Positions 2,808-19,580 of a stretch of 22,532 bases of DNA are shown piece by piece. Source of the stretch: a virus. Numbering within the stretch: position 1 is the stretch's first letter; every line of letters starts with the position of its first letter. Where the stretch lies: IMG/VR virus record IMGVR_UViG_3300033993_003109, positions 1-22,532 of that record. One strand, 5' to 3'. A program made the position numbers and the translations under genes. The notes below the pieces were generated by a model. It saw only the letters and a program-made list of their open reading frames with translations, had not been told where the DNA came from and ran no database searches.

Positions 2808-3184
2808 GGGCGGCGCTGCGGGTCGTGGGTTGGGCAGCGCTCGATCGCCTGGCGTACGTCGCGCATTATTTGAGTGGCTGCGGTCGCCACTGAGTTGGAG
2901 TCGCGGATGAGCGACATGAGAGTTTCTGTGGTCGCTTTGCGGTCTGCTTCGCGTTCGATGCGGCGGGCCTCTTCGCGGGCCTCTGCCGCATTCAGGCGGC
3001 GCGACATCCAGTGGAGGGCCAGCAGGACCCCGATCAGCGCACCAAACGGGCCGAGGATCCATTGCATCCATTCGGGCATTTGCGATGCGCCGGCCACGGC
3101 GACCAAGGATCCGAATTTTGAGCCCGCAATCGCGGATAGGATGGTTGAGGCGGCGCTGGCGAAGGTTTCGATTTGCTGGCTCAT
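2804..3184 (-). CDS. Holin-like membrane protein
   Basis: A 126-residue protein starting at ATG 3184 (MSQQIETFASAAS). An upstream in-frame start at 3211 would run into the tape-measure stop codon and is less likely. Residues 1-35 are mildly hydrophobic, residues 40-60 form one clear membrane segment (W-M-Q-W-I-L-G-P-F-G-A-L-I-G-V-L-L-A-L), and residues 62-90 are a highly charged helix rich in Arg, Glu and Ala. The remaining C-terminus is polar. One membrane segment followed by a charged coiled coil just after the tape measure and before the endolysin region fits a holin or holin accessory protein, but a tail-associated membrane protein is also possible. It is coupled to the next gene by an ATGA overlap. 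Confidence 0.7.
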   Translation of the reverse strand: MSQQIETFASAASTILSAIAGSKFGSLVAVAGASQMPEWMQWILGPFGALIGVLLALHWMSRRLNAAEAREEARRIEREADRKATTETLMSLIRDSNSVATAATQIMRDVRQAIERCPTHDPQRRP

Positions 3185-3206
3185 GGCGTGCGAAAAAACT
3201 GTGGGT

Positions 3207-3211
3207 GTCAA
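3207..3211 (-). promoter_or_regulatory. TTGAC motif before the holin-like gene
   Basis: The minus strand reads ATTATTGACACC, where the TGA also ends the tape-measure gene. The distance to ATG 3184 is 22 nt, longer than at most sites. Confidence 0.35.
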
Positions 3212-5559
3212 TAATCCGAGATTGGGGTTTCGGGGGAGCGGGCGAGGATGTGAGATAGCAGTGTCACCATTTGTTGTTGCAGATCGGTTTGTTGGCGTGC
3301 GATATCCAGACCGCTGCTGACCACGCCGCCGCCGCCGCCGATGCGCTGCATGTCCGAGGCGCGGCCGATGGACGATTGGAACTGCATGTTGTCCGCGCGA
3401 TTTCGGAGCGAGGTGAGTTTTTCGAGGTCGGCCTCGTTGGCGGCGATATTGCGGGCCTCATCGATCCCAAGCCCGGATTCGCCGGCGATTTCCTGGGCGC
3501 GTTTTTCCTGCTGGCGGGCCGCCACGGCGTCTGGGCCGGCCATGGTGGCGGCGGCATCGGCGATCAGACCTTGGCTGCGTTGGCGTGCCTCCTGGCGGCG
3601 TTCTTCGGCCTCGGCTTCCTTCTGCGCGGCGTCGGCGCGGGCGCGGGCGTCCACCAGGCGTTCCGCGCCGGTGCGGGCGTCCTGGGCACTGAAGCCCGCG
3701 GCGGTGAGGCGGGCGATTTCGGCGCGGATTTCCGCCTCGCGCTCGAGGGCTTTGACCTTTTCCTGGTTGCCGGCAAGCTGTGCGTTGAGAATCCGCATTT
3801 CTTCCTCCCAGTCGGCCAGTGCGGCAGCCTTGGACTGGCGGATTTTTTCTTTCTCGTCGGCGAGGCGGGTTTGCAGGTCGGCACGGCGTTTTTCGATGGC
3901 CTCGAGCTTGAGCGCTTGTTCGAGATCGGCGGTTTTTCCGGTGGAGTCATCCAGCTGGTCGAGGCGGCCGATGATGTCCCCGGCGCTGCCGGTGCTGGCG
4001 GTGGTGGTGATTTTAGCGCGGATGGCGGCTTCGGCCCGGGCCAACTCGGCGAGCTGGGCGGCGGCGCTGCCAGTGCCGCTGAATTGTTCGTCGGCCTCTT
4101 TGATTCGGCGGTCGAATTCGGCGCGCTTGGTGGCGTAGGCCTTGGCGGCCTCCTCGGTGGCCTTGGCGGCGGCGGCCTCCGCCTCGGCAGCGGCGCGGGC
4201 GGCGGCATTGGCGGCGAGTTGTTGGTCAGTGGTGGCGCGGAGTGCCTTGGTCTTGAGGTCGAGCAGGCGGGTGGTGGTCTGGGTGTCCGCCATAATGCGC
4301 TCGCGGGTGTCGGCATCGTCGGTGCGCTGCATCTGAGCCATGGCGGCGTCTTCGATGGCGGCTTTCTCGGACTCGATGGAGGCGATGGTTTGCTCGATCT
4401 CCGCCCGGCTGGCGACTTGCGCCTGGATGGCACCCACGTGGAATTTTTCCATGGCCGCATTGCCGCGGTCGTAGGATTCTTGCATGGCGGCATTCGCTTC
4501 GGCGAGGTCGTTGGCGTAGTTCATGGCCAACTGTGCGCCGATGCCGGCGACGACCAACGCGGCACCGCCGCCGATCATGCCCGCGCGGCTGGGTCCTTTA
4601 CCAGCGGTGGCCCCGGCGGTGGCGTTTTCGCGCAGCGCGGCGGTGTTGGCCTTGATGGCGGCGGTCTGGGTCCACCACTCGCGGGTCTTGTTGGCCATCA
4701 GGCCGAGGAACGTGGCGATCTTGAGCGCGGCCATTCCTGCGCCGATGGCCACCAGGTGCGGGGCGATGGCGACTAGGCCATTGACCAGCCCGCCGATGGC
4801 TTTGCCGACGGCGGTGAGGTCCATGGTGGCGAATTGCGCGGTGATTTTTTCCAGCGCCGGGAGGATGGCCACGGCGGCGGATGCGCCGATCTGTTGCCAG
4901 CCGGTGCCGAGGTTGCCGAGACGATCGGAAACGGCGTCGAGCTGGCTGGCATTCTGGGCCAGCGTGGCGGGCAGCGCGCCGAGTTCGCGGCGGGCTGTTT
5001 CGAAGCCTTCGACATCGGAAAACGCGACGAGCGCCTCCGCGCCGGTGCGGCCGAAGATGCGCATGGCCAGCGCGGTGCGCTCGGCCGGGTCTTGCACGGC
5101 CATGATCGCCTTGCCGAGCGCTTGGAAGGCATCCACCGGGTCCATTTCCCGCAGGCGGCCCATATCCACGCCGAGCACGGCGAAGGCCTCGCTGGTGGTC
5201 TGCATGTCCTCGTTTACGCCGGCCAGCGAGCGCTGCATCAAGCCCAGCAGGCGGGTGGTGGACTCGCCAGCCATCCCGGCGTTCTTGAGCACGCGCTCCA
5301 TCACCACGAGGTTCTCGCCGGAGGCCCCGGTGCGGGCCATTTGATCCGAGAGGCGGCCGCCGGCATCGATGGCGGCGCGGATGGCGTTGGGTAGCGAGTT
5401 GGCGGCCTGGATTAGGCCGTCGAAAAGGCGTTGGCCGATGCGTTGCTTGAAACCGTTGGCGATTTTCTCGGCGGTGCTTTCCGCCTTGCGTTGCAGTCCG
5501 TCCAATACGGTGACGGCTGCACCCGCGTTGCCGCTTACATTTACGGAGACCCCGGACAT
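3208..5559 (-). CDS. Tail tape measure protein
   Basis: A 783-residue protein, the longest in the window, placed right after the frameshifted tail chaperone as in lambda-like phages. Residues 1-250 match the usual tape-measure N-terminal region (for example the M-R-I-F-G-R-T-G-A-E-A-L motif near 166). Residues 255-290 and 326-347 are hydrophobic and may insert in the membrane. Residues 350-720 are a long Ala/Glu/Arg-rich coiled coil. The C-terminus carries S-D-M-Q-R-I-G-G-G-G-G (735-745), a glycine motif I associate with tape-measure C-termini, followed by a short amphipathic helix. The ATG at 5559 has no Shine-Dalgarno site but an AATTGAC motif 15 nt upstream. The length suggests a tail of medium length, about 0.1 micrometre, if the usual 1.5 angstrom per residue holds. 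Confidence 0.92.
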   Translation of the reverse strand: MSGVSVNVSGNAGAAVTVLDGLQRKAESTAEKIANGFKQRIGQRLFDGLIQAANSLPNAIRAAIDAGGRLSDQMARTGASGENLVVMERVLKNAGMAGESTTRLLGLMQRSLAGVNEDMQTTSEAFAVLGVDMGRLREMDPVDAFQALGKAIMAVQDPAERTALAMRIFGRTGAEALVAFSDVEGFETARRELGALPATLAQNASQLDAVSDRLGNLGTGWQQIGASAAVAILPALEKITAQFATMDLTAVGKAIGGLVNGLVAIAPHLVAIGAGMAALKIATFLGLMANKTREWWTQTAAIKANTAALRENATAGATAGKGPSRAGMIGGGAALVVAGIGAQLAMNYANDLAEANAAMQESYDRGNAAMEKFHVGAIQAQVASRAEIEQTIASIESEKAAIEDAAMAQMQRTDDADTRERIMADTQTTTRLLDLKTKALRATTDQQLAANAAARAAAEAEAAAAKATEEAAKAYATKRAEFDRRIKEADEQFSGTGSAAAQLAELARAEAAIRAKITTTASTGSAGDIIGRLDQLDDSTGKTADLEQALKLEAIEKRRADLQTRLADEKEKIRQSKAAALADWEEEMRILNAQLAGNQEKVKALEREAEIRAEIARLTAAGFSAQDARTGAERLVDARARADAAQKEAEAEERRQEARQRSQGLIADAAATMAGPDAVAARQQEKRAQEIAGESGLGIDEARNIAANEADLEKLTSLRNRADNMQFQSSIGRASDMQRIGGGGGVVSSGLDIARQQTDLQQQMVTLLSHILARSPETPISDY

Positions 5560-5574
5560 GGTTTCAGGTCACCT

Positions 5575-5579
5575 GTCAA
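5575..5579 (-). promoter_or_regulatory. TTGAC motif before the tape measure gene
   Basis: The minus strand reads ATAATTGACAGG here. Fifteen bases separate TTGAC from the ATG at 5559. It lies in the non-coding leader between chaperone and tape measure. Confidence 0.5.
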
Positions 5580-5619
5580 TTATCTTGCGAGGCACGCCAG
5601 GACATGGCATGGTGGCGTC

Positions 5620-6420: not shown

Positions 6421-6433
6421 GATGGTCCGGCTA

Positions 6434-6826
6434 TCAGGCCCCGTCCGCACCCATGATTGGGTAATGGTGGATTGTGATCGAAACCATTGTCGATTCGTTG
6501 CCCTTGTAGGTGATTTCCGACGATTCGACAAAGCAGCGGCCCGTGTTGAGCGCTACTCCGTCCACGGCCGCGCTGAATGTCACGGCCGCGCCTTTGGCGG
6601 GTAGAGTGACGGTGCCGGTGCAGCGGGTTTGAAGTGTCACGGTGTTTTTCGCACCATGCTCGACTCGGGTCACGATGTCTCCATCCTCGTCGGTGATGTC
6701 GGTGGTGTTACCGCCGATGGCGATTTTCACGTCTTCGACGATACCGGTGACGAGTGAGTCGGAGGCGGTTTTGACGGTGGCTGGGATTCCCCAGGAAACA
6801 GTTTTGCCTTTGATTGCGACGGCCAT
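6434..6826 (-). CDS. Candidate major tail tube protein
   Basis: A 130-residue protein from ATG 6826 (MAVAIKGKTVSWG). An ATG nine bases upstream (6835) is also in frame, but 6826 puts the upstream TTGAC motif 17 nt away, closer to the spacing at other genes. The protein is almost entirely predicted beta strand, rich in Thr, Val and Gly (G-G-N-T-T-D-I-T-D-E-D-G-D, K-G-A-A-V-T-F-S-A-A-V), as expected for a tube or decoration fold. It sits immediately before the tail chaperone, where the major tail protein is found in lambda-like phages. No sheath gene is present, so a non-contractile tail is inferred. A minor tail or decoration protein remains possible. Confidence 0.72.
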   Translation of the reverse strand: MAVAIKGKTVSWGIPATVKTASDSLVTGIVEDVKIAIGGNTTDITDEDGDIVTRVEHGAKNTVTLQTRCTGTVTLPAKGAAVTFSAAVDGVALNTGRCFVESSEITYKGNESTMVSITIHHYPIMGADGA

Positions 6827-6843
6827 AGTGACCATGGCGCGGT

Positions 6844-6848
6844 GTCAA
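6844..6848 (-). promoter_or_regulatory. TTGAC motif before the tail tube gene
   Basis: The minus strand reads TGATAATTGACACC, just after the stop codon of the preceding gene. The distance is 17 nt to ATG 6826 and 8 nt to ATG 6835. Confidence 0.5.
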
Positions 6849-6851
6849 TTA

Positions 6852-7259
6852 TCAGGCGGCCGGGGCCGCGATCAGGCGGAACCCTTGGAAGTGCTGCCAG
6901 CGCGTTTCGTCCCGGCCGGCCTCTGAGGTGAGCGGCACCCACGCGGATGCCACTACGCCTCTGCTGTGCAGATACGCGATCACCGCGTCGGGATCGTCCA
7001 GGGTGCTGAACAGCCCGGCGGCATCTTCTTCCGCCGCCTCAATGGTGGTGGCGTCCGCGTCATTCATCACGGCGACGATCACATTGAAGTCCCAGATGTC
7101 CGCTTGTCCCATGCCGTAATCCTCTCCGCTTCCGATCCGGACGATTGCGTATGGAGGGAAAACATCGTCGTCCCCTTCCTGGCACAATATTTGAATCGGG
7201 CCGACGTAGTGAGCTTGAAGGTAGTCTTGAAGGGCTCGGATGACCTTGGAGCGAAGCAT
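6852..7259 (-). CDS. Candidate tail terminator or tail completion protein
   Basis: A 135-residue protein (MLRSKVIRALQDYLQ). It opens with an amphipathic helix, then has a hydrophobic strand region with P-P-Y-A-I-V-R-I-G-S-G-E-D-Y-G-M-G, a strand W-D-F-N-V-I-V-A-V-M, a helix rich in Ala, Glu and Asp, and a closing strand W-Q-H-F-Q-G-F-R-L-I-A. This order of an N-terminal helix, a central sheet around a helix and a short size is like lambda gpU and related tail terminators. It lies between the gp10-like gene and the tube candidate, as tail terminators do. The assignment is from layout and fold impression, not from a clear motif. Confidence 0.68.
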   Translation of the reverse strand: MLRSKVIRALQDYLQAHYVGPIQILCQEGDDDVFPPYAIVRIGSGEDYGMGQADIWDFNVIVAVMNDADATTIEAAEEDAAGLFSTLDDPDAVIAYLHSRGVVASAWVPLTSEAGRDETRWQHFQGFRLIAAPAA

Positions 7260-7274
7260 GTGACTTTGCGGCTA

Positions 7275-7279
7275 GTCAA
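7275..7279 (-). promoter_or_regulatory. TTGAC motif before the 7259 gene
   Basis: The minus strand reads GAAATTGACTAG; its TGA is also the stop codon of the upstream gene. Fifteen bases separate it from the ATG at 7259. Confidence 0.5.
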
Positions 7280-8052
7280 TTTCCCATCTTGGCGTTGGCT
7301 TTCGAACTGCGGCGTTCGATCATTGCGGCAAGGGCTTTCCGCAGCCCTTCAGTCCGCCGGAAAACCGCGCGCTGGATCCGCACGTCCATGTCCTTCGGAA
7401 AATAGGGCATGCGGTTGTAAACGGTGATGCCAAGTCCCTCGGTGGTCCGGATAATCGAAACGCCGCCGGGTTTTTTCCCGTGGCGCGTGATCCATACCGG
7501 AGTGGCCCGCGCTGCGGTCTTGAGTTCGGCGGCGGCATGCAGCCAGCCGGCGGCGAGCAGGCCCACATTTTTGATCGCCCGGCGGGTGTAGGCTCGGCGG
7601 ATGTTGGCGCGGGTGACGGCCATCAGTTGTCCTGTGCTGCCGGTGCGCACGCGGCCACTGGCCGGCGAGCGGGAAAACTTGTGGATTCGCTCCAGGTCTG
7701 CTTCCGTTTGCGCGAATTCGCGGATGGTTTTTTTGCCCCGCCCGGTGCCCCACTCAAAGCCGGCATCGATGAGGCCGAAGACTTTCTCGTCTTTCAACTT
7801 GGTGGTCGGGAACAGCGCCGCGATGTCGGCGGCAATCCGCGCCTCGCCGCGCTTCTTGGCACTAAGATCGATTCCGCCGCTATCCGTCATGGCCTGTCCC
7901 TTGCTGGCACCCGGTGGTGTCATGGCGATTAGGTGACCGACGATGATGCCGGCTTGCTGGCGCACCACGGAATCGAGGTCTTTGCGCGCCTCTCGCGCGA
8001 ATTCCTGCATGGCAGCATTCAGGCGGCGGGTATCAATGCGGATGTCGAGCAT
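7276..8052 (-). CDS. Candidate tail completion protein (HK97 gp10 or gpZ-like)
   Basis: A 258-residue basic protein. It starts M-L-D-I-R-I-D-T-R-R-L-N-A-A-M-Q-E-F-A-R-E, a pattern common at the start of gp10- or gpZ-like minor tail proteins, where a strand is followed by a long helix. Other features are a basic linker with K-K-T-I-R-E-F near residue 107, a Arg/Ala-rich helix A-N-I-R-R-A-Y-T-R-R-A-I-K, and near the C-terminus M-P-Y-F-P-K-D-M-D-V-R-I-Q-R-A-V-F-R-R. Such proteins help join the head and tail at the connector. The position next to a tail-terminator candidate supports the call. Family membership is a judgement from pattern only. Confidence 0.68.
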   Translation of the reverse strand: MLDIRIDTRRLNAAMQEFAREARKDLDSVVRQQAGIIVGHLIAMTPPGASKGQAMTDSGGIDLSAKKRGEARIAADIAALFPTTKLKDEKVFGLIDAGFEWGTGRGKKTIREFAQTEADLERIHKFSRSPASGRVRTGSTGQLMAVTRANIRRAYTRRAIKNVGLLAAGWLHAAAELKTAARATPVWITRHGKKPGGVSIIRTTEGLGITVYNRMPYFPKDMDVRIQRAVFRRTEGLRKALAAMIERRSSKANAKMGN

Positions 8053-8073
8053 TTCGGATGCTTGGTCAGGGGA

Positions 8074-8078
8074 GTCAA
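8074..8078 (-). promoter_or_regulatory. TTGAC motif before the 8052 gene
   Basis: The minus strand reads CGTATTGACTCC in the short gap after the preceding stop codon. The distance to ATG 8052 is 21 nt, longer than at most sites. Confidence 0.35.
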
Positions 8079-8085
8079 TACGGCC

Positions 8086-8802: not shown

Positions 8803-8806
8803 TGGC

Positions 8807-9429: not shown

Positions 9430-10140
9430 TCAGTAAACGTCAGAGTCCCAGCCGCGGGGACCGGAAAGTTTCCATGTTTTGGTGATTTGGTAAATGTGCC
9501 CCCGTTTTTGGTAGGTATTTGACCAGGCCAGCCATGAGCGGCCTCCAAGAGACGGGTTGGGGCCGGATGGGCTTTGAATTTTTCCCAGGTTGTTCAGCGA
9601 TGACGGGCGGCTTGTGGAAAATGAAATTTCGCGCCATTCCGCGCCTGGCACCAAGTAGCTTTCGAGCCCTCCTTTGGGGTTGGCCGCTCCGGATATTGTG
9701 GCGGCGAATTCCCGGAAAACACCTTTGGCGTCGTCGGTAGTCGGCAGGAAGGTGTTTGGATCGATGAAAACCGCTCCGTTTTTCGCGTCGGATGGCTTGC
9801 CGGCGATTTTGGACACGAAATCGGGATGCGCCTGGATCGGCTCCTGATCGAGGCTTCCTTGCAGCTCGTAGTAGGGCTCCGGCATCTCGAAAAGAAATCC
9901 TTCGAAGACGTATGAAACAGTCCAAAACCGAGGTTTTGTCCGCGTCCCGGATCGGCGGCTGAGCGCCATAGCCGAGAACCTAGGATGCAGGCTTCCGTTC
10001 GGTGCGATGGCGCCTGGAAACAATGCGTCGGGAATTTCCACGGTGAGTTGGATTGTATCAACTCCAAAGCGATCCGTTTCGAACCGCTCTTCCACTTGGC
10101 GGATCACTTGGCTGTTGCGTCCTTGAACATCTGCTGGCAT
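9430..10140 (-). CDS. Phage structural protein of unknown function
   Basis: A 236-residue protein from ATG 10140. It starts M-P-A-D-V-Q-G-R-N-S-Q-V-I-R-Q-V-E-E-R-F-E and is rich in Pro, Gly, Ser and aromatic residues, with segments such as W-T-V-S-Y-V-F-E-G-F-L-F and W-L-A-W-S-N-T-Y-Q-K-R-G, suggesting a beta-rich structural fold. I recognise no family. It is the first minus-strand gene after the plus-strand cassette, and its start lies only nine bases from the start of the divergent exported-protein gene, so its leader, including the TTGAC motif, lies inside that gene. A minor tail or baseplate-like role is possible. Confidence 0.75.
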   Translation of the reverse strand: MPADVQGRNSQVIRQVEERFETDRFGVDTIQLTVEIPDALFPGAIAPNGSLHPRFSAMALSRRSGTRTKPRFWTVSYVFEGFLFEMPEPYYELQGSLDQEPIQAHPDFVSKIAGKPSDAKNGAVFIDPNTFLPTTDDAKGVFREFAATISGAANPKGGLESYLVPGAEWREISFSTSRPSSLNNLGKIQSPSGPNPSLGGRSWLAWSNTYQKRGHIYQITKTWKLSGPRGWDSDVY

Positions 10141-10149: not shown

Positions 10150-10452
10150 ATGCGGAAGTCAATTATCATCATGATGGTTTTGCTCGCACTGCCCGCGATA
10201 GCGGATGACGCGAAAATCGCCGCCGAGTGGCAGCTCCTCCGTGAGGAGCTCCGCAAGCAGGGATACCCGGTGGCCTCACGGGTGGAAGGGCGGCGTGAAA
10301 TCGCCGCGGACATGGAGCGAGTGCGGCGTGAGATGCAGCGGCGGGCGGGCAAGGCACCTGTTTCTGATATGCAGCGAATTGGGGGCGGCGGCGGGCCTGT
10401 GATTGTTCATCCTCGCCCTCGGGGACTACAAATCGGATCATTACGCAAATGA
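10150..10452 (+). CDS. Small exported protein sharing a motif with the tape measure
   Basis: A 100-residue protein from ATG 10150. Residues 1-19 form a classical signal peptide, M-R-K-S followed by a hydrophobic core and A-I-A just before D-D, so export to the periplasm is likely. Residues 20-65 are a charged helix rich in Glu and Arg. Residues 72-82 read S-D-M-Q-R-I-G-G-G-G-G, identical to residues 735-745 of the tape measure, and a short Pro/Arg-rich tail follows. It is first in a three-gene plus-strand cassette linked by ATGA overlaps. Function is unknown; a spanin-like, superinfection-exclusion or tail-interaction role can be imagined, and the shared motif suggests a common partner or descent from the same sequence. 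Confidence 0.7.
   Translation: MRKSIIIMMVLLALPAIADDAKIAAEWQLLREELRKQGYPVASRVEGRREIAADMERVRREMQRRAGKAPVSDMQRIGGGGGPVIVHPRPRGLQIGSLRK
10158..10162 (-). promoter_or_regulatory. TTGAC motif before the 10140 gene
   Basis: The minus strand reads ATAATTGACTTC, 17 nt before the ATG at 10140. It lies inside the first codons of the divergent plus-strand gene. Confidence 0.5.
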
Positions 10453-10820
10453 GAACTGGCTGGGAAAACGGATCACGGGTGCCTGTCACAGACGGGCGCG
10501 AGGGCGGGCGCGAATCCATGCAGTCCCGCCGCGCTGATCCGGCGGCGCTCATTATGGCTCGGCGCTTGGTAGGTTTTATGCTGGCGGACGCCAATCCGGC
10601 GCTCGGCATCGAGTGCCTGGCACTGGTGACTGGCATCGGCTATGACGGCGCGAGCGAGGCGGCCATTGCGCGGCGGCACCGCGTGACCAGGGCGGCGGTA
10701 AGCAAGCGCTGCGTGGAATTGTGCGAGGCTTTCGGCATTCCCCCGGTCCGGGCTATGCGGCCGGAGAAGTGCCGAGATCATTGCCGCAAGGCGCGAGTCC
10801 GCGAAATGCTTTCGTCATGA
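10449..10820 (+). CDS. HTH DNA-binding protein, probable phage regulator
   Basis: A 123-residue basic protein starting in an ATGA overlap with the exported-protein gene. Residues 68-95 (A-S-E-A-A-I-A-R-R-H-R-V-T-R-A-A-V-S-K-R) form a clear helix-turn-helix of the sigma-70 region 4 or MarR-like type. The C-terminal 25 residues are Arg/Cys-rich (R-P-E-K-C-R-D-H-C-R-K-A-R) and could bind metal or DNA. The gene is followed by a ParB-like gene, again in an ATGA overlap. A regulator of phage gene expression or of partition is plausible, but the family is not identified. Confidence 0.72.
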   Translation: MRTGWENGSRVPVTDGREGGRESMQSRRADPAALIMARRLVGFMLADANPALGIECLALVTGIGYDGASEAAIARRHRVTRAAVSKRCVELCEAFGIPPVRAMRPEKCRDHCRKARVREMLSS

Positions 10821-11533
10821 AGTCGCTTGTTTCTTTTGACGTGCAAGCGCCGTGTATGGAAATCATTGCGCCGTCCCGTCCGCTTCCGTCGTTTATCGAG
10901 GCCACACCCGTGGGCCTAAAGCTGTCCAAGGACCTTACGTTCGAAGAATGGTCTGCGATCGCCAGCAGCTTCGGGGTCGCCCTCCAGACAGCCGCCTGGT
11001 GCATCGGCGATTGGATGGTGTATGGCGAGCGCAAGTGGGGCCGGCAGTTGCTCCTCGATGGCGAGGAGTTTGATCCGGCGAAGCCGACGCGCATTCCCTC
11101 CCACGTTTATGATGCGGCCGTTGAATCTACCGGTCTGGATCGCAACACCCTGAGCAATTATGCCGGAGTCTGCCGAAAAATCCCCATGGAAGAGCGGCGG
11201 ATCAATGTTTCGTTCGGGCATCACCGCATTCTGGCGCCGCTGCCACCTGCCAAGCGGCTGGAATGGTGGTCGCTGTTGGATTCCGAATCCAAGAAGCTTC
11301 CCACTGTAAAGCGGCTGGCGCTTTCCGTGCGCTGCGTCGAAGGGGAGGCCCGGATTGTCACTGACAAGGAGCTAGAGCGCCGCGGGGCTCAGGCAGGGCA
11401 CGACAATTATGTCCCGCACCTGACTCGGCTTCTGACTTGCCTACGCAAAACAGTGCCTCTCATGGATGAGGACCAGCGCGAGGCCCTGCGGCAGGATACT
11501 GCCCAGCTTATCGATCTTCTGGATAGTTTGTGA
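10817..11533 (+). CDS. ParB-like or LmbU-like DNA-binding protein
   Basis: A 238-residue protein starting in an ATGA overlap with the HTH gene. Residues 39-70 (D-L-T-F-E-E-W, then W-C-I-G-D-W-M-V-Y-G-E-R-K-W-G) match a module I know from phage, plasmid and LmbU-type proteins. It is followed by a HTH-like part (T-G-L-D-R-N-T-L-S-N-Y-A-G-V near 105-118), then V-S-F-G-H-H-R-I-L-A-P-L and P-T-V-K-R-L-A-L, which resemble ParB/KorB-style DNA-binding helices. The last 35 residues are an acidic helix. It likely binds a specific DNA site, either for regulation or segregation; the site was not found. The gene ends 153 bases before the stop codon of the convergent head gene. Confidence 0.7.
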   Translation: MKSLVSFDVQAPCMEIIAPSRPLPSFIEATPVGLKLSKDLTFEEWSAIASSFGVALQTAAWCIGDWMVYGERKWGRQLLLDGEEFDPAKPTRIPSHVYDAAVESTGLDRNTLSNYAGVCRKIPMEERRINVSFGHHRILAPLPPAKRLEWWSLLDSESKKLPTVKRLALSVRCVEGEARIVTDKELERRGAQAGHDNYVPHLTRLLTCLRKTVPLMDEDQREALRQDTAQLIDLLDSL

Positions 11534-12213: not shown

Positions 12214-12240
12214 TTCATGATGAGATTTGGGCCAATGATG

Positions 12241-12279
12241 CGCCGGGGTGGAGGGAACCCAAAAACCTCCACCCCGGCG
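12241..12279. other. Perfect 14-bp hairpin downstream of the capsid gene
   Basis: Two perfectly complementary 14-base arms (12241-12254 and 12266-12279) flank an 11-base loop that contains a run of five T on the minus strand. It lies five bases downstream of the capsid stop codon. No T-run follows the stem on the minus strand, so a simple intrinsic terminator is unlikely. It could stabilise the capsid mRNA 3' end, attenuate read-through, or be an RNase-processing signal. Confidence 0.6.
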
Positions 12280-12284
12280 AGGGC

Positions 12285-14273
12285 TTACGCGGCAAGTGCG
12301 TCGAGCATGGCCGCGAACGATTTCGGACGACGGACTCCGCCGTCGTAGTAGGTGTTTGCGACCAGCGTGTGCAGGCCCAGCTTGGCATTCGCGCTGTCGC
12401 GAATGAGCTCCAGGTTGAGGCCGCCCCAGTAACCGATCACGTAGTCAGCGAAGTTTCCGAAGAAGATCGCGGAGCATACGGCGCCAGACCCACCCTTAAC
12501 CAGCGTGCGGCTGATTGCGTTGGTGAACGCGGCGCGGTAGCCGTTGAGGGTGTTTGGCGCGAGATCGCTCAGGATGAAGTTTCCTTCGATGCCCGATCCT
12601 TGTTTCGGGGTGAGCTTGAGCTTCTGCCGGACTTGTCCGTTGGTGGCATAGGCCAGGCTTCCCATGATCGCGTTTTGCGCGTCCACTTTTTCTTCAAGGT
12701 TCACAATGTGGCTGTAAGTGGGAGCCGCGCCTGCTGCGCCCCCTGCCACGCTGCCGATGCCGGAGGTGCCTGCGATGCCTTGGGCTTCGTTGGTGCCTCC
12801 GCCATGGAAAAACGCGGCTTCTTGAGTGGCGAGCATTTGGGCGGTGAGGTGGCCGCGGATCATCGCCTCAATGGCCGGGCTGGACTGCATGAGCAGTTGG
12901 TCCGACAGGTCGATGAACGCCGGAAGGCGCTTGGGCCGCAATGCCAGCTGGGCAGTGGTGGGATTGACCTCGTCCGCTCCGGCATTCTCGGCTTTTGCGG
13001 CAGCAGCGGTGCCAGCGACCAATCGAGGCACGTCGAGGTTGCCGGTGAGGCCGGTTAGCACGGTGGCACCGAGGCTACGCATGATCGACGCGTTGAAGAA
13101 GTCGTCGAGCAGGCCGGCCTTCTGGGTTGCGATTGCCATTCCGCCCTGGTCGCCAGCAACGCTGGTTTGTCCGGTGGCGGTCATGTCGCGCTGAACGAGG
13201 AAGCTCGGCAGCATGATTCCGGCGGAGCGCCCGAGGCCTGCGGCGGCGGCTTCACGGAAGCCTTCGTCGCAGAGTTCGCGCTCGATGCCGTCCAGGGCAT
13301 TGCCGGAAACCAGCGAGCGAAGCGCGACTCCGAGGTCGAAGCGCGAGACGTCGGACCGCTCGGAGCGGCTCAGCGTTGGCACGCCTGGCGTGTAGGATTG
13401 CTGGCGGCTGACGAGCGTATTGAAAACCGCCTCGCGGAATTGCTCCGGCGATTGACCGTCACGCACTGCGGCGCGGGCGTCCACGGTGATGCCTTGGCGC
13501 TGGGCTTGTTCGGCAATAGAAGTGATCGCATCGACGCGGCGGCGCTCCAATTCCACGGCGCTGCGGGCAGCGGCTGCGGGATCAGCAGGAGGTGCTTCGC
13601 GCACGATTTCCAGCGAGCGCTGGGGCGGCTGCGGGGTGGATTCCGCACGGGTGGCGGATTCAGCAGGGGCGGCAGGGGCCGCGGGTGGTTGATTGGTATT
13701 CATGGATGTTTCATTTTGTAAATTCGGTGCCGTTGTCGGATTTCCCATTGCCCTGCCAACTCCAACGGAATCGTCGGCCGGGATGCTCACCAGGCTGAGT
13801 TCGAAGGGCTCCCAGTCAGTGGCTCGAATGGTTTCCACGCCACCGTCGCCTTTGGTCACTTCTTCTTTGTGGATCCGGTATCCGACCGAAACCAATCGGC
13901 GGATTCCGTCTTTCACGTCCTGGAAAATTTCTTCGGCGCGGGCCGACTTGCCAAACCGCACGATGGCGCGGCCGCGCTTGTCGTCGTCGATCCACGCTTT
14001 GACGACGACCCCGATTTGATCGCGGCGGTCGTGTTCTACCAGTAGCGCGCCGCCATTGTTGAGGCGGCCCAGGCGCACGTTTTTCTTTTCGTGGGCGAGG
14101 ATTTCGCTGCCGAAGTAGCGAGTTACCGGTGCTTCACTGGAAAAAGCAATTTCCACGGTGCGGGCCGCGTCGTCGATTGCCGCGCGGTCGAGTTCGACCG
14201 AGCGATGAAGCATCTCATCTTCTGCGGCGGCGGCGCGTGTGCGGAGAAAGGGGTTGTGCAGGGTGCTGCGCAT
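12285..14273 (-). CDS. Prohead protease-major capsid protein fusion (HK97 type)
   Basis: A 662-residue protein that combines two usually separate genes. Residues 1-175 are an HK97-type (U35) prohead protease: L-L-V-E-H-D with His81, R-R-L-V-S-V-G-Y with Ser129, and the typical E-L-S-L-V-S-I-P-A-D-D-S-V-G end near 158-171. Residues 191-300 are a Pro/Ala-rich linker and an acidic helical delta-like scaffold. Residues 300-662 are an HK97-fold capsid, with A-L-R-P-K-R-L-P-A-F-I-D-L-S near 445 and a long loop in the middle. The protease would cut itself and the delta region away after assembly. Residue 191 is an in-frame ATG at 13703, which could give a capsid-only product, but no Shine-Dalgarno or TTGAC motif precedes it. 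Start and stop spacing fit the operon, with two bases before the portal stop. Confidence 0.88.
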   Translation of the reverse strand: MRSTLHNPFLRTRAAAAEDEMLHRSVELDRAAIDDAARTVEIAFSSEAPVTRYFGSEILAHEKKNVRLGRLNNGGALLVEHDRRDQIGVVVKAWIDDDKRGRAIVRFGKSARAEEIFQDVKDGIRRLVSVGYRIHKEEVTKGDGGVETIRATDWEPFELSLVSIPADDSVGVGRAMGNPTTAPNLQNETSMNTNQPPAAPAAPAESATRAESTPQPPQRSLEIVREAPPADPAAAARSAVELERRRVDAITSIAEQAQRQGITVDARAAVRDGQSPEQFREAVFNTLVSRQQSYTPGVPTLSRSERSDVSRFDLGVALRSLVSGNALDGIERELCDEGFREAAAAGLGRSAGIMLPSFLVQRDMTATGQTSVAGDQGGMAIATQKAGLLDDFFNASIMRSLGATVLTGLTGNLDVPRLVAGTAAAAKAENAGADEVNPTTAQLALRPKRLPAFIDLSDQLLMQSSPAIEAMIRGHLTAQMLATQEAAFFHGGGTNEAQGIAGTSGIGSVAGGAAGAAPTYSHIVNLEEKVDAQNAIMGSLAYATNGQVRQKLKLTPKQGSGIEGNFILSDLAPNTLNGYRAAFTNAISRTLVKGGSGAVCSAIFFGNFADYVIGYWGGLNLELIRDSANAKLGLHTLVANTYYDGGVRRPKSFAAMLDALAA

Positions 14274-14275
14274 GA

Positions 14276-15724
14276 TTATTCGTCGCTGTCAATTTCAGCC
14301 TTGAGCGGCGCGGGCCCTTGGGGCGGCGTAAGACTCAGCCCCAGCGAGGCGGCCAGCTCCTCGTCCGCCTTGGTGGTGCGCAGCACGTCAAAGATGTCGC
14401 CGCCGTTTTCCGCGATCACATCGCGCAGTGGTTTCATGCGATTCCCGACCGCCATGATGGCTGCCTCCATGTCTTTTTTGGGGTCCACCCACGCCCACCG
14501 GCGGCCGCGAAATTCCGGTGCGTTGAACTTCCACATTTTTTCGTATGGCAGCCCGAGGCGTCCGCTAAGCAGCTCGAGCGTCAACCACTCTTCGAATACG
14601 GGCACGCAGAAGTGCTCGATCATAAATCGCTGCAGCCCGCGCCACACTTCGCGCTCTTCGAGCAGGCCGGCGCGGATCGAGCTGTAATTGACCCCCTCAA
14701 GGTCGCTGGCCAGTGTGTTGTAGCTGATCCCCAGCGATGTCGCGACGCCGCGCAGGCAGGATTTCACGAAGTCTCCGTAACCGCTGTTCGGATGATTTGT
14801 ATCCCATGCCTTGAAGTCCACGCCAGGCGGCAGCTCCTCGATGGTCCCGGGGCTGGCGTCCATGGCTAGGTTTCCGTCGCCGTCGATTTCGCCTGTCCAG
14901 CCTTCCGGCGTCGATTTGGTGAAAAATCCCATCTTTGCCGCGCCGGTGCGTGCGGCCATCACTTCGGCCTCGGCATATCCGTCGAGCATTTTGAGCCGCT
15001 GCATCGAGGCGACCAACCACGGCAGCCCACGCGTTTGTTCCGGCCGTTCCGTGCGGAACAAGTGAATGATGTCGCCAGCCGGGATACGCGTGCGCAGGCC
15101 GGGCGCGGACCCTGTCCACATGGTGTCGCCTGGGTGGCGGTTGAGCAGGTGATAGGCCACCGGCCGCCGATACGCGTCCAGCTCCACCCCAAATCGGATG
15201 TCGTTACCGTTTTCGGCCCGCCGGTTGTCTTCCGCATCCAGCAAGTCCGCCTCGATGATTTGAAGTGCAAGCACGCCGCCGCTACGGATTTTACGAACCA
15301 GAACCTCGCCGTCTCGCGCCATGCAGCGCAGCACCAGTCGCTGCACGTCGCACCACGAATAGCGGCCGGTCACGTCGCAGCGTCCCGGGCGGCCCCATTG
15401 GTGGAACGCCAGCTCGATCCGGTCATTGGCCACTTCGTCAAAACGGCCACCGGTTTCCTGCACGCGCATTTGCAGGCTGATTCCGTTTTCCCCGAGCACG
15501 TTGTTTTCCAGCGCGCGCAGGAACCCTCGCACCCATTCGTTGTTACGCTCAAGGTCGCGGGCCCGTGTGCGGATCGCCAGCAAGTGGCCGCGCATCGCTG
15601 AGTCCGACGACAGCGGCGAAACGATCCAATCGAGTGTCGCCCGGCCGATTTTTGACGCCGTAAAGTTACGGGCCGACGATTTCCCTTTCGGCCCCCGGAA
15701 GATGTTTCGAAAAGATTTTAGCAT
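14276..15724 (-). CDS. Portal protein (lambda family)
   Basis: A 482-residue protein with the pattern of lambda-type portals. The N-terminal part has R-T-R-A-R-D-L-E-R-N-N-E-W-V-R-G-F-L near 52-69, followed by a basic segment. The middle has R-L-V-L-R-C-M-A-R-D-G-E-V-L-V-R, then I-I-E-A-D-L-L-D near 157 and G-D-I-I-H-L-F near 217, which are characteristic. The C-terminal half carries helices typical of the stem and crown (G-I-S-Y-N-T-L-A-S-D-L-E-G-V-N-Y-S). The portal forms the ring through which DNA enters the head. The gene overlaps the gpW-like gene by seven bases, as is usual in this cluster. Confidence in the family is high. Confidence 0.9.
   Translation of the reverse strand: MLKSFRNIFRGPKGKSSARNFTASKIGRATLDWIVSPLSSDSAMRGHLLAIRTRARDLERNNEWVRGFLRALENNVLGENGISLQMRVQETGGRFDEVANDRIELAFHQWGRPGRCDVTGRYSWCDVQRLVLRCMARDGEVLVRKIRSGGVLALQIIEADLLDAEDNRRAENGNDIRFGVELDAYRRPVAYHLLNRHPGDTMWTGSAPGLRTRIPAGDIIHLFRTERPEQTRGLPWLVASMQRLKMLDGYAEAEVMAARTGAAKMGFFTKSTPEGWTGEIDGDGNLAMDASPGTIEELPPGVDFKAWDTNHPNSGYGDFVKSCLRGVATSLGISYNTLASDLEGVNYSSIRAGLLEEREVWRGLQRFMIEHFCVPVFEEWLTLELLSGRLGLPYEKMWKFNAPEFRGRRWAWVDPKKDMEAAIMAVGNRMKPLRDVIAENGGDIFDVLRTTKADEELAASLGLSLTPPQGPAPLKAEIDSDE
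14288..14292 (-). promoter_or_regulatory. TTGAC motif before the protease-capsid gene
   Basis: The minus strand reads GAAATTGACAGC, at the 3' end of the portal coding sequence. Fourteen bases separate it from the ATG at 14273. Confidence 0.45.
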
Positions 15725-15963
15725 GCAGGGAAGTGGATTTTGATGGTCCGTCGTTTCGTCCCTCCGGCGATGAGGCTTTCCAGTGCGCGTTCTTCTTCGC
15801 GCAGCTTATCGCGCAGCCGCATCAGTTTTTCGACGTCGGCAAGGGTGTAGCTCTGATCCCCGAATGAAACGGACTGGCTTGTTTTCCCAAGCAGGCTCGT
15901 GATCGATGAGCTGCACGCAGCCAACATGGCTTGCACTTCCACCAGGCGTTCTTCGTTGCTCAC
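15718..15963 (-). CDS. gpW-like head-tail connector candidate
   Basis: An 81-residue protein with a GTG start at 15963, 22 bases after the large-terminase stop. It has a first helix (E-E-R-L-V-E-V-Q-A-M-L-A-A-C), a short beta hairpin region (Q-S-V-S-F-G-D-Q-S-Y-T), and a second long helix (D-V-E-K-L-M-R-L-R-D-K-L-R-E-E) before a basic C-terminus. This helix-hairpin-helix arrangement and the position between terminase and portal match lambda gpW, which prepares the packaged head for tail joining. Small size makes the identification tentative. Confidence 0.7.
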   Translation of the reverse strand: MSNEERLVEVQAMLAACSSSITSLLGKTSQSVSFGDQSYTLADVEKLMRLRDKLREEERALESLIAGGTKRRTIKIHFPAC

Positions 15964-15978
15964 GGCATGGGCCGCGCT

Positions 15979-15983
15979 GTCAA
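15979..15983 (-). promoter_or_regulatory. TTGAC motif before the gpW-like gene
   Basis: The minus strand reads GAGGTTGACAGC directly after the large-terminase stop codon, 15 nt before the GTG start at 15963. Confidence 0.5.
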
Positions 15984-15985
15984 CC

Positions 15986-17839
15986 TCACCAGTTATTTAC
16001 CCAGCCACTGCGGGAGCGCGGTGGTTTCGCGGATTTTTCCCCACTTTTACCCGGCTGCGGATCGGATTTTTTTTCGGGCACGAACGACGCGGCCAGCCGT
16101 TCCCAGTTCACATTGAGAAGTTGCAACGCTGCCAAGGCATAAACGCGGATGTCGAGCGCTTCGTTTCGCGCTTTTGACGGGTTTTCAAAACGCGAGTATG
16201 GCACGCCGTTTTTGTAGCGCGTCACCTTTGTCTCCGCAGTCAACTGCCGGAACCATGTTTCGTCGCGATTGGAGGGAAAGTGCATGTAACCGGGGCCCAG
16301 GTCGGCCGATTGCAGACGCGAATAAATGATCTCCTTGGCGGTGTCCGTTCCAACCGAGAACAGGGCGGCCCGCGCTTTTCCTTGCCGGGTCGGTCGGCTC
16401 AACAATGGCACTGAGGGCCCGCCACGGCCCTTGCATGCGTAGATTTTCCGGCGTTCCCGTTTTTTGGTGTAGTCATAAACCGACCGCGATTTATGACCGC
16501 TGTCCACCAGTGCGGCCGTTACGCGCATGATAGTTCCGTTCGGGTGCTCCCATGTGCGGTCCAACTGCTGGTCAAGCTCAGCCTGCACTTCCGGTCGGTT
16601 GAAATCGCCCATGATTACGACGTAGTCAATCGACCAGCTTTCTTCGCCGGGGCCCCATCCCACGAATTCCATCTCGATCCGGTCGCCCTGAATGTCGATC
16701 CCCGCGGTGACCAGCAGCGCGCCGGGCGGGAAGTCTCCCCAGTTTTCGCGCCGCTGCATGAGCGGTTCCCAGGCTACGGATTCGCCTTCGTCTTCCCATG
16801 TCTCAGCCAGGAACGTGTTCACCCAGGTGCGCAGCACTTCTTTCCCTTTACGCTTGGCCGATATGTGATCGGCGACCATCTGGTGAAGGCGGTTTTTGTA
16901 GCCCCGCTTGTGCCGGAAAAGTGAGGCCAGCCCGTTGAGGTGATAGCCTCGCAGCGTCCGCTCGGGGAATTCCGGCCGCCACTCTCCGCGGCGAACCATC
17001 ATCCGCCGGTCATCATCTGAAATGGGCGCTTCGCATCGGTCGCACACATACACGGCGTCGCTGCCGTCGCCCTCCGGATCGTAGCGTATTTGCGCCCATT
17101 TTAATGTTTGGTAGCCGCCGCACTTCGGGCATGGGCACCACAGCCGCCTCTGGTCGCTTTCCTCAAAGCGTGCTTCGATCCGCGAAATCCCTTTCACCGT
17201 TGGCGTCGAGGTTTCGAAGATCACCGGGTTCCAGAATGTCTCCGTCCGCCGAATCGCCAGCGAGGCCGGGTCACCCTCGCTTCCAGCGCTGGTCGGAAAG
17301 CGGTCTTCCTCGTCGAGCAGCACCACGCGCCGCGGGCGGCTGGCCAGTCCGCTCGGTGCATTGGCCCCGGCCATGGCGATGTTGCCGCCCGGGAAAATCT
17401 TGTGCAGCAGGGTGTTTCCGCTGTCGCGGGATCTTGGGTCGCTAACCTTGTCGCGAAGGGCCGGCGTGTCCCGGATCATCGGTGCCAGGCGTTCCTTGGA
17501 CCAGCTCTCGGCCAGATCGATCGTCGGCTGCACCATCAGGATCGGCGCGGGCTCGATGTCCATGAAATAGCCGACCACATTGTTGAGCACTTCGGTTTTC
17601 CCGAGCTGGCTGGCCACCATCAGAATGGTCCCGGAGGCAGTTGGATCGTTCACAGAGTCCATCCATTCCACCGCATACGGCGTCATGTCGGATGAGTATT
17701 TTCCCGGGTTGCTCGAGGCCTCGGCGCTCAGGTAGCGGCGCTCATTCGCCCACTCTGAAACCGTCATCCGCGGCGGCGGCCGGAAGATCTCGAACCAGTG
17801 TCCGGCGATGGTTTGCAGCGCGTCATTCATCGGCACCAT
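15986..17839 (-). CDS. Terminase large subunit (GpA family)
   Basis: A 617-residue packaging motor of the lambda GpA type. Residues 74-83 (M-V-A-S-Q-L-G-K-T-E) form the deviant Walker A, and residues 172-179 (V-V-L-L-D-E-E-D) the Walker B with its catalytic acid. Residues 235-240 and 266-269 contribute five cysteines (C-P-C-P-K-C and C-D-R-C) of a zinc-binding region seen in this family. Residues 378-396 (T-A-G-I-D-I-Q-G-D-R-I) start the RNase H-like nuclease domain with Asp382. The C-terminus ends in a Lys/Ser/Pro-rich tail. The ATG at 17839 is in frame with another at 17830, and the choice is uncertain because neither has a good Shine-Dalgarno site. The start overlaps the HAD gene by 17 bases. 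Confidence 0.93.
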   Translation of the reverse strand: MVPMNDALQTIAGHWFEIFRPPPRMTVSEWANERRYLSAEASSNPGKYSSDMTPYAVEWMDSVNDPTASGTILMVASQLGKTEVLNNVVGYFMDIEPAPILMVQPTIDLAESWSKERLAPMIRDTPALRDKVSDPRSRDSGNTLLHKIFPGGNIAMAGANAPSGLASRPRRVVLLDEEDRFPTSAGSEGDPASLAIRRTETFWNPVIFETSTPTVKGISRIEARFEESDQRRLWCPCPKCGGYQTLKWAQIRYDPEGDGSDAVYVCDRCEAPISDDDRRMMVRRGEWRPEFPERTLRGYHLNGLASLFRHKRGYKNRLHQMVADHISAKRKGKEVLRTWVNTFLAETWEDEGESVAWEPLMQRRENWGDFPPGALLVTAGIDIQGDRIEMEFVGWGPGEESWSIDYVVIMGDFNRPEVQAELDQQLDRTWEHPNGTIMRVTAALVDSGHKSRSVYDYTKKRERRKIYACKGRGGPSVPLLSRPTRQGKARAALFSVGTDTAKEIIYSRLQSADLGPGYMHFPSNRDETWFRQLTAETKVTRYKNGVPYSRFENPSKARNEALDIRVYALAALQLLNVNWERLAASFVPEKKSDPQPGKSGEKSAKPPRSRSGWVNNW

Positions 17840-18131
17840 TGCTCAGGGACCGAACCACGCGCGTCCATTTGATCCATGACCAGGCGCGGTCATCCACGAC
17901 GTAGCCAGGTTTGGCCAGGATTGCCTCGAACAGCTCGCTGCACTCAAAGAGTTCTGCGGCCGCCCGGGCATGCGCTTGCCCGCGGGCGGACCAGAGCACC
18001 AGTCGGAATCCATCGGCCTTTTTTGCTTGGAGCCACTCCAAAAGCGATTCATTCGGCAGGCCACCCAGCGACAGGGTTCCGTCAACATCAACGTAAATCC
18101 ATTTTGGCGGCGGTGGCGGGCGGCGGCTCAT
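17823..18131 (-). CDS. Miniature HAD-superfamily phosphatase between terminase genes
   Basis: A 102-residue protein that has all four HAD motifs in a very short, capless form. Residues 15-20 (D-V-D-G-T-L) are motif I with Asp15 and Asp17, residues 44-50 (L-V-L-W-S-A-R) motif II with Ser48, Lys74 of A-K-P-G-Y motif III, and Asp80-Asp81 of V-V-D-D motif IV. It should hydrolyse a phosphate ester; the substrate is unknown. In a packaging operon a 3'-phosphatase acting on DNA or RNA ends is conceivable, but nucleotide or sugar phosphates are possible too. The start is an ATGA overlap with the small terminase and the end overlaps the large terminase, so it is translated with them. A proline-rich stretch (residues 5-9) precedes the fold. 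Confidence 0.82.
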   Translation of the reverse strand: MSRRPPPPPKWIYVDVDGTLSLGGLPNESLLEWLQAKKADGFRLVLWSARGQAHARAAAELFECSELFEAILAKPGYVVDDRAWSWIKWTRVVRSLSNGADE

Positions 18132-18628
18132 GCATTCCGGGTCCAGTCAATTTTTTCGAGGCCCATGAGTTCCGCCAGGCACTTGTCTTTTTCCTCATCG
18201 GTGAGCGGCATGTTGAGCAGGCGGTTGCGGATCGCCACCATCACCTTTTCGCCAAGCTTCTTCACCGCAGCGATCTCGACCAACTCTCCGCGTGCGCGGC
18301 TGTTTGCCAGAGCCAGCTTGTCCGCTTCCTCCCGAGTTTTCCGCAGGCGCTCGGCTTCGTATTCTCCGCCGCCTATTGCCCGGTAGAGGTCGCCGATCCG
18401 GTAGAGTTTTGCGCCGGCGGCCCTTCCGGCCGCGTCTCCAACTGGCTGCGCTTTGGCTTCGGTGAGTCGTTTCATCACCGAGTGGCGCTCGGTCCCGGTT
18501 TCGCGGCACCATTCAGCCACGGTCAAAGCGCTGACGTGCTGCGCGGCGGCGGCGGGCTCCGGTCTGGCTATTTTTTTTGCGGTCTTTCTGGCGGCGGCCG
18601 CAGCGTGTTTTTTGAGCTCACTGAGCAT
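18128..18628 (-). CDS. Terminase small subunit (Nu1-like)
   Basis: A 166-residue protein. After a basic Ala/Lys-rich N-terminus, residues 34-55 (A-L-T-V-A-E-W-C-R-E-T-G-T-E-R-H-S-V-M-K-R-L) form a winged-helix-type DNA-binding motif. Residues 76-85 (Y-R-I-G-D-L-Y-R-A-I) follow, and the rest is a long charged helix (E-A-E-R-L-R-K-T-R-E-E-A-D-K-L-A-L-A-N-S) with a final helical bundle. This matches the Nu1 or DUF1441 type of small terminase, which recognises the packaging site and recruits the large subunit. It overlaps the previous gene by 11 bases. A TTGAAC sequence lies 16 nt upstream, one base longer than the motif found at other starts. Confidence 0.82.
   Translation of the reverse strand: MLSELKKHAAAAARKTAKKIARPEPAAAAQHVSALTVAEWCRETGTERHSVMKRLTEAKAQPVGDAAGRAAGAKLYRIGDLYRAIGGGEYEAERLRKTREEADKLALANSRARGELVEIAAVKKLGEKVMVAIRNRLLNMPLTDEEKDKCLAELMGLEKIDWTRNA
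18146..18150 (-). promoter_or_regulatory. TTGAC motif before the HAD gene
   Basis: The minus strand reads AAAATTGACTGG within the 3' end of the small-terminase gene, 14 nt before the ATG at 18131. It coincides with an Ile-Asp codon pair near the terminase C-terminus. Confidence 0.4.
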
Positions 18629-18989
18629 AGAGGGACAGTAATTTGTTCAACTCCTTCTGGATCGCCAGGCATGCTTTGAAGTCCTGGATTGTGGCCGAGT
18701 TCTGGAACAGCATGTTGAGCCTTGCGACGGATTTTCCGAATTCCAGCTCCGGATTGTAGTCCGCCACGTTCCGGAAATATTCCGCGATCAACTGCCAACC
18801 CTCTGCTTTCTTGGCGGCGGGCCAGTCCTGCATGTGTTCGGCCAGTGTCGTTTCACTGACCCCCACCGTCATCATTTCGATGAGCTGCTTGCCTTCCGCC
18901 ATGCTCAGCCCGGGCGGCGGCGATTGGGCGATGTTTTTTGACTTACTCGAGCGCGAAGACTTCTTCGATCCATTTTTTGTGGTGGGCAT
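18618..18989 (-). CDS. Unknown protein upstream of the small terminase
   Basis: A 123-residue protein, taken from the ATG at 18989 (MPTTKNGSKKSSRSSKSKN). This start overlaps the PLD-like gene by 47 bases; an internal ATG at 18902 (MAEGKQLIEM) would avoid the overlap. The basic Ser/Lys-rich N-terminus could bind nucleic acid. The remainder is helical, with N-P-E-L-E-F-G-K-S-V-A-R-L-N-M-L-F-Q-N-S near 80-100 and a C-terminal helix A-I-Q-K-E-L-N-K-L-L. I recognise no family. Its position just ahead of the small terminase in the operon suggests a packaging accessory role. Confidence 0.68.
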   Translation of the reverse strand: MPTTKNGSKKSSRSSKSKNIAQSPPPGLSMAEGKQLIEMMTVGVSETTLAEHMQDWPAAKKAEGWQLIAEYFRNVADYNPELEFGKSVARLNMLFQNSATIQDFKACLAIQKELNKLLSLYAQ

Positions 18990-19560
18990 AGAGTAAGGCG
19001 GAACGTGCGATAATGTTCTGTTCGATGCGCGGGTTTGCGGTGAAATTGGCGGAGCCTTCCATGATGAATCCGGAGTCGCCGAAATTGAGGATGGCCACCT
19101 TGGCGTGATTTTCCAGACAGCGGATCCGGGATCCACGCTCGGCGAGGCCGTTGGCGATGGTCGCATAGACGGCGGATTCCCGGCGCTTGAAATAGGTCCC
19201 GGTCAGTAGGTGGATTTTCGACAGCCTTCCGTCGTCGAGCATTTCTAGCATCTCGAGCGCGTTGGGTCGATTAAGCGTCCACGTCGAGGCGTGCAATTCC
19301 GCGCCTTGGATCCCGGCCATCTCCACAATGATGGGCACCAGCGACCAGTAATCGAATTTTCCATCCGACACGATGTGGAAAAATTCCCCCTCGGATGGCA
19401 GCCGCTCAATCAGCTCCCGCGCCGTGGCTCGCTTGCGGGCGTCGATGCATTTCCGTTTCCCCTCCATGCGCACCATTCGAGGTGTGATTGTCTCACGCGT
19501 TTCGACTCGCGCGTCGAATTTCCGGAAACGGAACAGTTCGGCGGTGTCCATAGGCGGCAT
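18943..19560 (-). CDS. Phospholipase D-like (HKD) protein
   Basis: A 205-residue protein with one PLD-type motif. Residues 151-182 read N-H-A-K-V-A-I-L-N and then E-G-S-A-N-F-T-A-N-P-R-I-E-Q-N, giving His152, Lys154, Ser170, Asn172 and Glu180. In the classical HxKxxxxD motif the last acid is replaced by Asn159. Proteins with one motif normally act as dimers, as in the nuclease Nuc and BfiI, so this may be a phage nuclease or a lipid-modifying enzyme. The preceding 150 residues are a mixed alpha/beta domain with W-S-L-V-P-I-I-V-E-M-A-G-I-Q-G near 72-86. It is first in the packaging operon, divergent from hicA. The start at 19560 has the TTGAC motif 15 nt upstream. Confidence 0.8.
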   Translation of the reverse strand: MPPMDTAELFRFRKFDARVETRETITPRMVRMEGKRKCIDARKRATARELIERLPSEGEFFHIVSDGKFDYWSLVPIIVEMAGIQGAELHASTWTLNRPNALEMLEMLDDGRLSKIHLLTGTYFKRRESAVYATIANGLAERGSRIRCLENHAKVAILNFGDSGFIMEGSANFTANPRIEQNIIARSALLYAHHKKWIEEVFALE

Positions 19561-19575
19561 GATCTCTGTGGCGGA

Positions 19576-19580
19576 GTCAA
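19576..19580 (-). promoter_or_regulatory. TTGAC motif before the PLD-like gene
   Basis: The minus strand reads TTTTTTGACTCC, 15 nt before the ATG at 19560, in the divergent intergenic gap. Confidence 0.5.

Follow-up and report, generated by a model that had tools for sequence, protein, structure and literature searches.

A TTGAC(A) box at a fixed distance before late-gene start codons in phages of Verrucomicrobiota and a co-occurring pair of candidate regulators

The viral contig IMGVR_UViG_3300033993_003109 from IMG/VR was analyzed over its positions 1 to 22,532, and this whole stretch of 22,532 nucleotides (nt) is referred to as the window. Its late genes, including those for the terminase, portal, capsid and tail proteins, are encoded on the minus strand, and two regulator genes on the plus strand, one for a small helix-turn-helix (HTH) protein and one, directly downstream, for a protein homologous to LmbU, lie between the capsid gene and a tail gene. 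A short box, TTGAC, precedes the start codons of many of the late genes at a nearly constant distance (Table 1). The sequence logo is [AT]TTGAC[A], with TTGACA as the usual form, and the spacer that follows is GC-rich and contains no second element.

All ten minus-strand TTGAC copies listed in the original prediction were found in place and, upon rechecking, have the gaps to the start codon that it gave, namely, eight values of 14 to 17 nt and two outliers of 21 and 22 nt. The near matches that it reported, TTGAAC before the small terminase gene and another one before the gene at 9427, are present in the sequence as well, and an eleventh copy, which it had overlooked, is located on the plus strand (TTGACGTGCAAGCGCCGTGTATG, positions 10836-10858), with a gap of 15 to the conserved regulator gene. 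The minus strand contains 23 TTGAC copies in total, which agrees with the claimed density of about one per kilobase, and eight of these lie 13-17 nt before a late-gene start, compared to ~0.12 expected (Poisson p ~8e-13, assuming 23 genes and uniform placement of TTGAC), so that the clustering is indeed non-random. All 6 minus-strand AATTGAC sequences precede a start codon. In an unbiased scan, for which the start codons were chosen without use of the motif, TTGAC ranked first among the 1,024 pentamers at gaps 14-16 (5 open reading frames (ORFs) vs 0.15 expected); at the shifted gaps 8-10, 20-22 and 26-28, it was not the top pentamer and showed no excess. TTGAC holds TGA, and in the window, two of the ten copies share bases with an upstream stop codon; the stop-codon explanation of the box was rejected given that it accounts for these two copies only.

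Table 1. Boxes, regulator genes and associated features. Coordinates refer to the window unless another sequence is named; gap, number of nt between the box and the start codon.
Feature	Coordinates	Strand	Remarks
Conserved leader of the late block	19576..19620	-	CTGYCGC..CAAAAC.CTAGCGAYAGG..TTTTGAC in relatives (nine-contig alignment); directly 5' of the first late gene
TTGAC box	19576..19580	-	gap 15 to gene 18943-19560, first of the late block
TTGAC box	18146..18150	-	gap 14 to gene 17823-18131; within the small-terminase coding end
TTGAC box	15979..15983	-	gap 15 to head-tail adaptor gene 15718-15963 (GTG start); 15/15 orthologues
TTGAC box	14288..14292	-	gap 14 to protease-capsid gene 12285-14273; within the portal gene end; 13/15 orthologues
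LmbU-like regulator gene	10856..11533	+	225 aa; predicted ParB/Noc/KorB-type HTH fold; co-occurs with the box
TTGAC box	10836..10840	+	gap 15 to the LmbU-like regulator gene
Small HTH gene	10449..10820	+	123 aa; best structural matches to sigma-factor region 4 domains; candidate box reader
TTGAC box	10158..10162	-	gap 17 to tail gene 9430-10140; 6/7 orthologues
TTGAC	8074..8078	-	gap 21 to gene 7276-8052, out of register; orthologues at 14-15
TTGAC box	7275..7279	-	gap 15 to gene 6852-7259; includes the stop codon of the upstream gene
TTGAC box	6844..6848	-	gap 17 to gene 6434-6826 via the second ATG (fits relatives); 8 to the first ATG
TTGAC box	5575..5579	-	gap 15 to tape-measure-like gene 3208-5559; 8/8 orthologues
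TTGAC	3207..3211	-	out of register, with gap 22 to gene 2804-3184; shares bases with a stop codon; possibly a chance occurrence
Inverted array of TTTTGAC(A/G)-like boxes	L163-L164 (G165C34 region), ~19110-19280		in the 3'-terminal part of a replication gene; equivalents in the G129 and G230 prophages

A related large terminase subunit (TerL) is encoded by 19 IMG/VR contigs, one of which (L004) has a TerL 100% identical to that of the window. Enrichment of the box extends to the related phages (TerL 69-84% identical), where 56 of the 400 ORFs have TTGAC at gaps 14-16 compared to 1.5 expected, again rank 1 of 1,024, with no excess at shifted gaps; gaps of 14, 15 and 16 predominate. The box is found before the same gene families in the relatives, namely, the adaptor, capsid and tape-measure-like genes (see Table 1 for the counts) and the tail genes of 237 aa (6/7) and 258 aa (5/7), and is missing before the portal gene (0/15) and mostly before the TerL gene (3/15), although these per-family counts, for which the start was picked partly via the motif, serve to illustrate the pattern only, the enrichment itself resting on the motif-blind scan and on the comparison of prophage regions described below. 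The portal and TerL genes mostly overlap the upstream gene by 4-7 nt and, in general, families that overlap the upstream stop codon by 4-7 nt mostly lack the box, whereas the uncoupled families mostly possess it. The peptide or the reading frame around the box changes while the box itself is retained, as seen upstream of the capsid and LmbU-like genes, and therefore codon use does not explain it. The early genes of G390 and G391 are essentially devoid of the box, which thus combines a constant distance to the start codon (gaps 14-16) with restriction to late genes. It was not found in relatives with other hosts (G396, with a TerL identity of 48%, Roseobacter phage CRP-823, Exiguobacterium phage vB_EalM-137, AcaML1 and Pyei1), and a search of the available literature turned up no paper describing this motif.

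With regard to the host of these phages, a relative with 77% TerL identity was found in a Verrucomicrobia metagenome-assembled genome, which could be a binning error, and another one, with 70% identity and a matching GC content, is part of a 1.15 Mb contig of genome G309 (position 495,558). The integrated copy in G309 therefore supports a Verrucomicrobiota host for the phage group, and its position within a host contig suggests that this one relative is temperate. Use of the box by the host itself found no support: no peak was detected before the own genes of G309 (514-566 ORFs) and G001 (300-327 ORFs), both Verrucomicrobia, and the counts of ATTGACN{13,16}ATG across 289 genomes of the phylum were about equal to those of a shifted control.

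The box co-occurs with the two regulator genes far beyond the close relatives of the window. The LmbU-like gene was detected in 13 of the 388 Verrucomicrobiota genomes, and 12 LmbU-positive prophage regions (11 delineated around LmbU-like genes and one among the regions selected by portal) encode TerL proteins that, where found, are only 22-25% identical to that of the window. In these distant regions, the box precedes 41 of the 478 ORFs (3, 2 and 2 at control gaps), with a gap of 14 in 25 and of 15 in 11 of 46 cases, compared to 12 of the 866 ORFs (10, 2 and 4 at control gaps), that is, near background, in 39 portal-bearing prophage regions without the LmbU-like gene. The Fisher p value for this difference is ~3e-10, which overstates the strength of the association because the ORFs are taken as independent and the 12 regions represent perhaps five or six lineages. 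The two regulator genes are found together in 25 of the 28 regions that contain either one, and are adjacent in most of these; neither had a match in INPHARED (tblastn, E 1e-3).

The LmbU-like protein is homologous to the LmbU regulators (NF038070, E 7.5e-22, 78.1 bits, below the curated cut-off of 125). The structural model of its HTH domain matches Noc, Spo0J and ParB with Z scores of 7.1-8.3 over ~95 residues and KorB with a Z score of 5.6, which is consistent with a predicted ParB/KorB-type HTH fold; Foldseek itself returned no significant match for this model. For the small HTH protein, the top model matches are sigma factor domain 4 structures (Z ~6, weak), closely followed by LuxR/GerE-type HTH domains. 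The window protein has no Pfam match, and among its homologs, only one gave a weak match to sigma-70 region 4 (E 0.011) and one a weak match to KORA (E 0.2); the recognition helix is near-invariant among the homologs (R81 A82 V84 S85 K86 R87 C88), and its residues differ from those of sigma-70. Region 4 of sigma-70 normally targets TTGACA; unlike sigma-70, however, the small HTH protein has no region 2, and the box is too near the start codon for the usual geometry. With the LmbU family, the LmbU-like protein of the window shares sequence homology and an HTH DNA-binding domain, the difference being that it is phage-encoded and scores below the cut-off (NF038070; PMC6510168).

The evidence favors a DNA signal, given that the box co-occurs with two phage HTH regulators and that boxes are found on both strands in one prophage group. 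In the G129, G165 and G230 prophages, the ~150 bp preceding the small HTH gene contain TTTTGAC(A)-like boxes, three in reversed and three in direct orientation, several of which are identical in all six sequences. The occurrence of boxes on both strands, away from start codons, suggests recognition at the DNA level, although the array could also be a replication origin with iterons. Of the two readings in the original prediction, a non-canonical translation signal and a late-gene RNA or DNA signal, the late-gene specificity and the tie to the start codon stand, pairing with ribosomal RNA is not supported, and a DNA signal is the favored form.

As to the mechanism, we favor a late promoter or an operator that would be read by the phage pair. 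We tentatively put at just short of an even chance the interpretation that TTGAC(A) is a DNA element of a phage late regulon, read by the phage regulator pair, with transcription starting at or near the start codon. Under this interpretation, the box, at about -20 from the start codon, would be the control element of the regulon, with one box for each translationally uncoupled late gene and one for the LmbU-like gene itself, and would be read jointly by the sigma-region-4-like small HTH protein and the LmbU-like protein with the ParB/KorB-type HTH. The pair would recruit the host RNA polymerase to the box, and transcription would begin at the start codon or no more than a few bases from it, yielding leaderless or near-leaderless late mRNAs. 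We infer the binding of the box by the pair, activation over repression and the position of the transcription start; the fixed start-codon distance would be best explained if transcription starts at or near this codon. Reading of TTGACA by a sigma-region-4-like phage protein is plausible. A more specific version, possible but doubtful, is that this protein and its LmbU/ParB-like partner make a lone TTGACA a -10-less late promoter that fires at the start codon ~20 nt downstream, producing leaderless mRNAs; the -35 sequence by itself would then set the point where phage transcription begins. Together, the motif and the regulator pair point to an undescribed phage late-gene switch.

Partial precedents exist for such a switch. 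In Deinococcus-Thermus, leaderless mRNAs arise from a promoter element whose short distance to the start codon is fixed, likewise with no Shine-Dalgarno sequence (PMC12340547); that element, however, is TANNNT, lies next to the start and is read by the host sigma factor, whereas here TTGACA is found at -20, is missing before host genes and is linked to phage regulators. Phage-specific late start elements in AR9 and phiKZ similarly consist of a short late-specific motif before many late genes (PMC5312081), but those phages have their own multisubunit RNA polymerase and mapped transcription starts, whereas no RNA polymerase gene was seen in the contigs examined here. If the boxes are leaderless late promoters, they would provide a simple sequence rule for the late genes and true start codons of many uncultured phages, and would represent phage transcription control by a -35-type sequence without a -10 box. 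The late regulon is defined here in phages of Verrucomicrobia, where phage gene regulation appears to be little studied, and two candidate regulator genes are named for it.

Several observations weigh against a promoter that is read by the pair. At the usual -35 distance, TTGACA would put the transcription start inside the gene. No -10-like element was detected near the boxes, and TANNNT was not found at offsets 6-22 (49 distant sites); furthermore, the spacer is GC-rich (~67% GC) and T-poor, so that melting by RNA polymerase at the spacer is unlikely. The published LmbU site is the palindrome CGCCGGCG (PMC6510168), which was tried as a partner of the box and rejected, as it showed no enrichment in their vicinity (13 observed, 12.2 expected). 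For the array, the evidence is drawn from six related prophages, and part of the array is within the 3' coding end of a replication gene. Finally, the co-occurrence of the box with the pair may reflect shared descent within few lineages, and one region (L236) has the box before several genes with no LmbU-like gene detectable in its genome. The same region encodes a 452 aa protein (15257-16615), presumably ParB-like as judged by eye, whose gene itself carries the box and which is a possible replacement regulator.

Among the alternatives, we consider rather unlikely an RNA-level translation signal, whereby a factor of the phage or the host would bind UUGACA at -20 where the mRNA leaves the 30S subunit, and the box would replace the Shine-Dalgarno sequence for late genes. 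Such a signal would fit the spacing to the start codon, which is constant to ~1 base across unrelated genes, the match between the box position and the edge of the ribosome footprint, the scarcity of Shine-Dalgarno-like sequences, and the general lack of the box in genes that overlap an upstream stop codon and could be translated by reinitiation. However, GTCAA, the complement that was sought in 16S rRNA, is absent from the 16S gene of G309, the genome that carries the related prophage, and because host genes lack the motif as well, the form of this idea that involves rRNA pairing is unsupported. The box was also ruled out as a Shine-Dalgarno sequence proper, as it has no 16S complement and is located 14-16 nt, not 5-9 nt, from the start. 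Further counter-evidence includes the spacer, where hairpins showed no excess over shuffles or half-swapped controls, the DNA-binding HTH folds predicted for the co-occurring proteins, and, in one prophage group, the presence of boxes on both strands at sites that are not next to start codons. If the box acts in translation instead, these phages would have a start signal of their own with no relation to ribosomal RNA.

Less probable still is an operator without promoter function, where the pair keeps the late genes silent in the lysogen, acting as a roadblock or a global repressor similar to KorA/KorB, and a single upstream promoter serves the late block. The HTH folds, including ParB/KorB, the temperate lifestyle suggested for one relative by the integrated copy, the box arrays beside the regulator gene, as autoregulation predicts, and the conserved leader ahead of the first late gene are all compatible with this possibility. 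The likeness to KorA/KorB of IncP plasmids consists in two small HTH regulators, one with a ParB/KorB fold, but KorA and KorB repress promoters via palindromic operators, whose distance to the start codon is not fixed. A repressor site requires no exact start-codon distance, and neither the sense orientation of the boxes before late genes nor the sparing of most genes that overlap their upstream neighbor would be accounted for.

An ordinary host sigma-70 -35 box driving the downstream gene, to which the consensus TTGACA corresponds, is highly improbable: as the original prediction already held, the transcription start would fall inside the gene, a geometry that refutes this explanation for the downstream gene, the -10 element would fall in the coding region as well, no -10 box (TANNNT) is present in the spacer or 15-19 nt downstream, and the shared start-codon spacing would be unexplained. 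An artefact of stop codons, codon use or the chosen start codons, suggested by the TGA within TTGAC and the two copies that overlap a stop, has a practically negligible probability considering the unbiased scan with shifted-gap controls, the conservation across frames and peptides, and the near-background counts in the 39 control prophage regions.

Several other features of the window were noted. A small signal-peptide-like ORF (10150-10452, plus strand) contains in its codons 4-5 the GTCAA of the box of the divergent tail gene, and the sequence at its C-terminus, SDMQRIGGGGG, is similar to that at the end of the tape-measure-like protein (3208-5559). The prohead protease and the major capsid protein are fused in a single ORF (12285-14273, minus strand; PF04586 and PF05065), and directly 3' of this gene, there is a strong GC-rich inverted repeat, GGGGTGGAGG..CCTCCACCCC (12240-12290, minus strand), that is terminator-like; the next gene has no TTGAC box. 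The tail/fiber region includes a gene for a leucine-rich-repeat protein (LRR_8, E 1e-12; 741-2291, minus strand). Near the early/late boundary, on the strand opposite to the late genes, an ORF that we take, by eye, to be HicA-like is followed by a gene for a HicB-like antitoxin (PF15919, E 1.5e-10; 19694-20304, plus strand).

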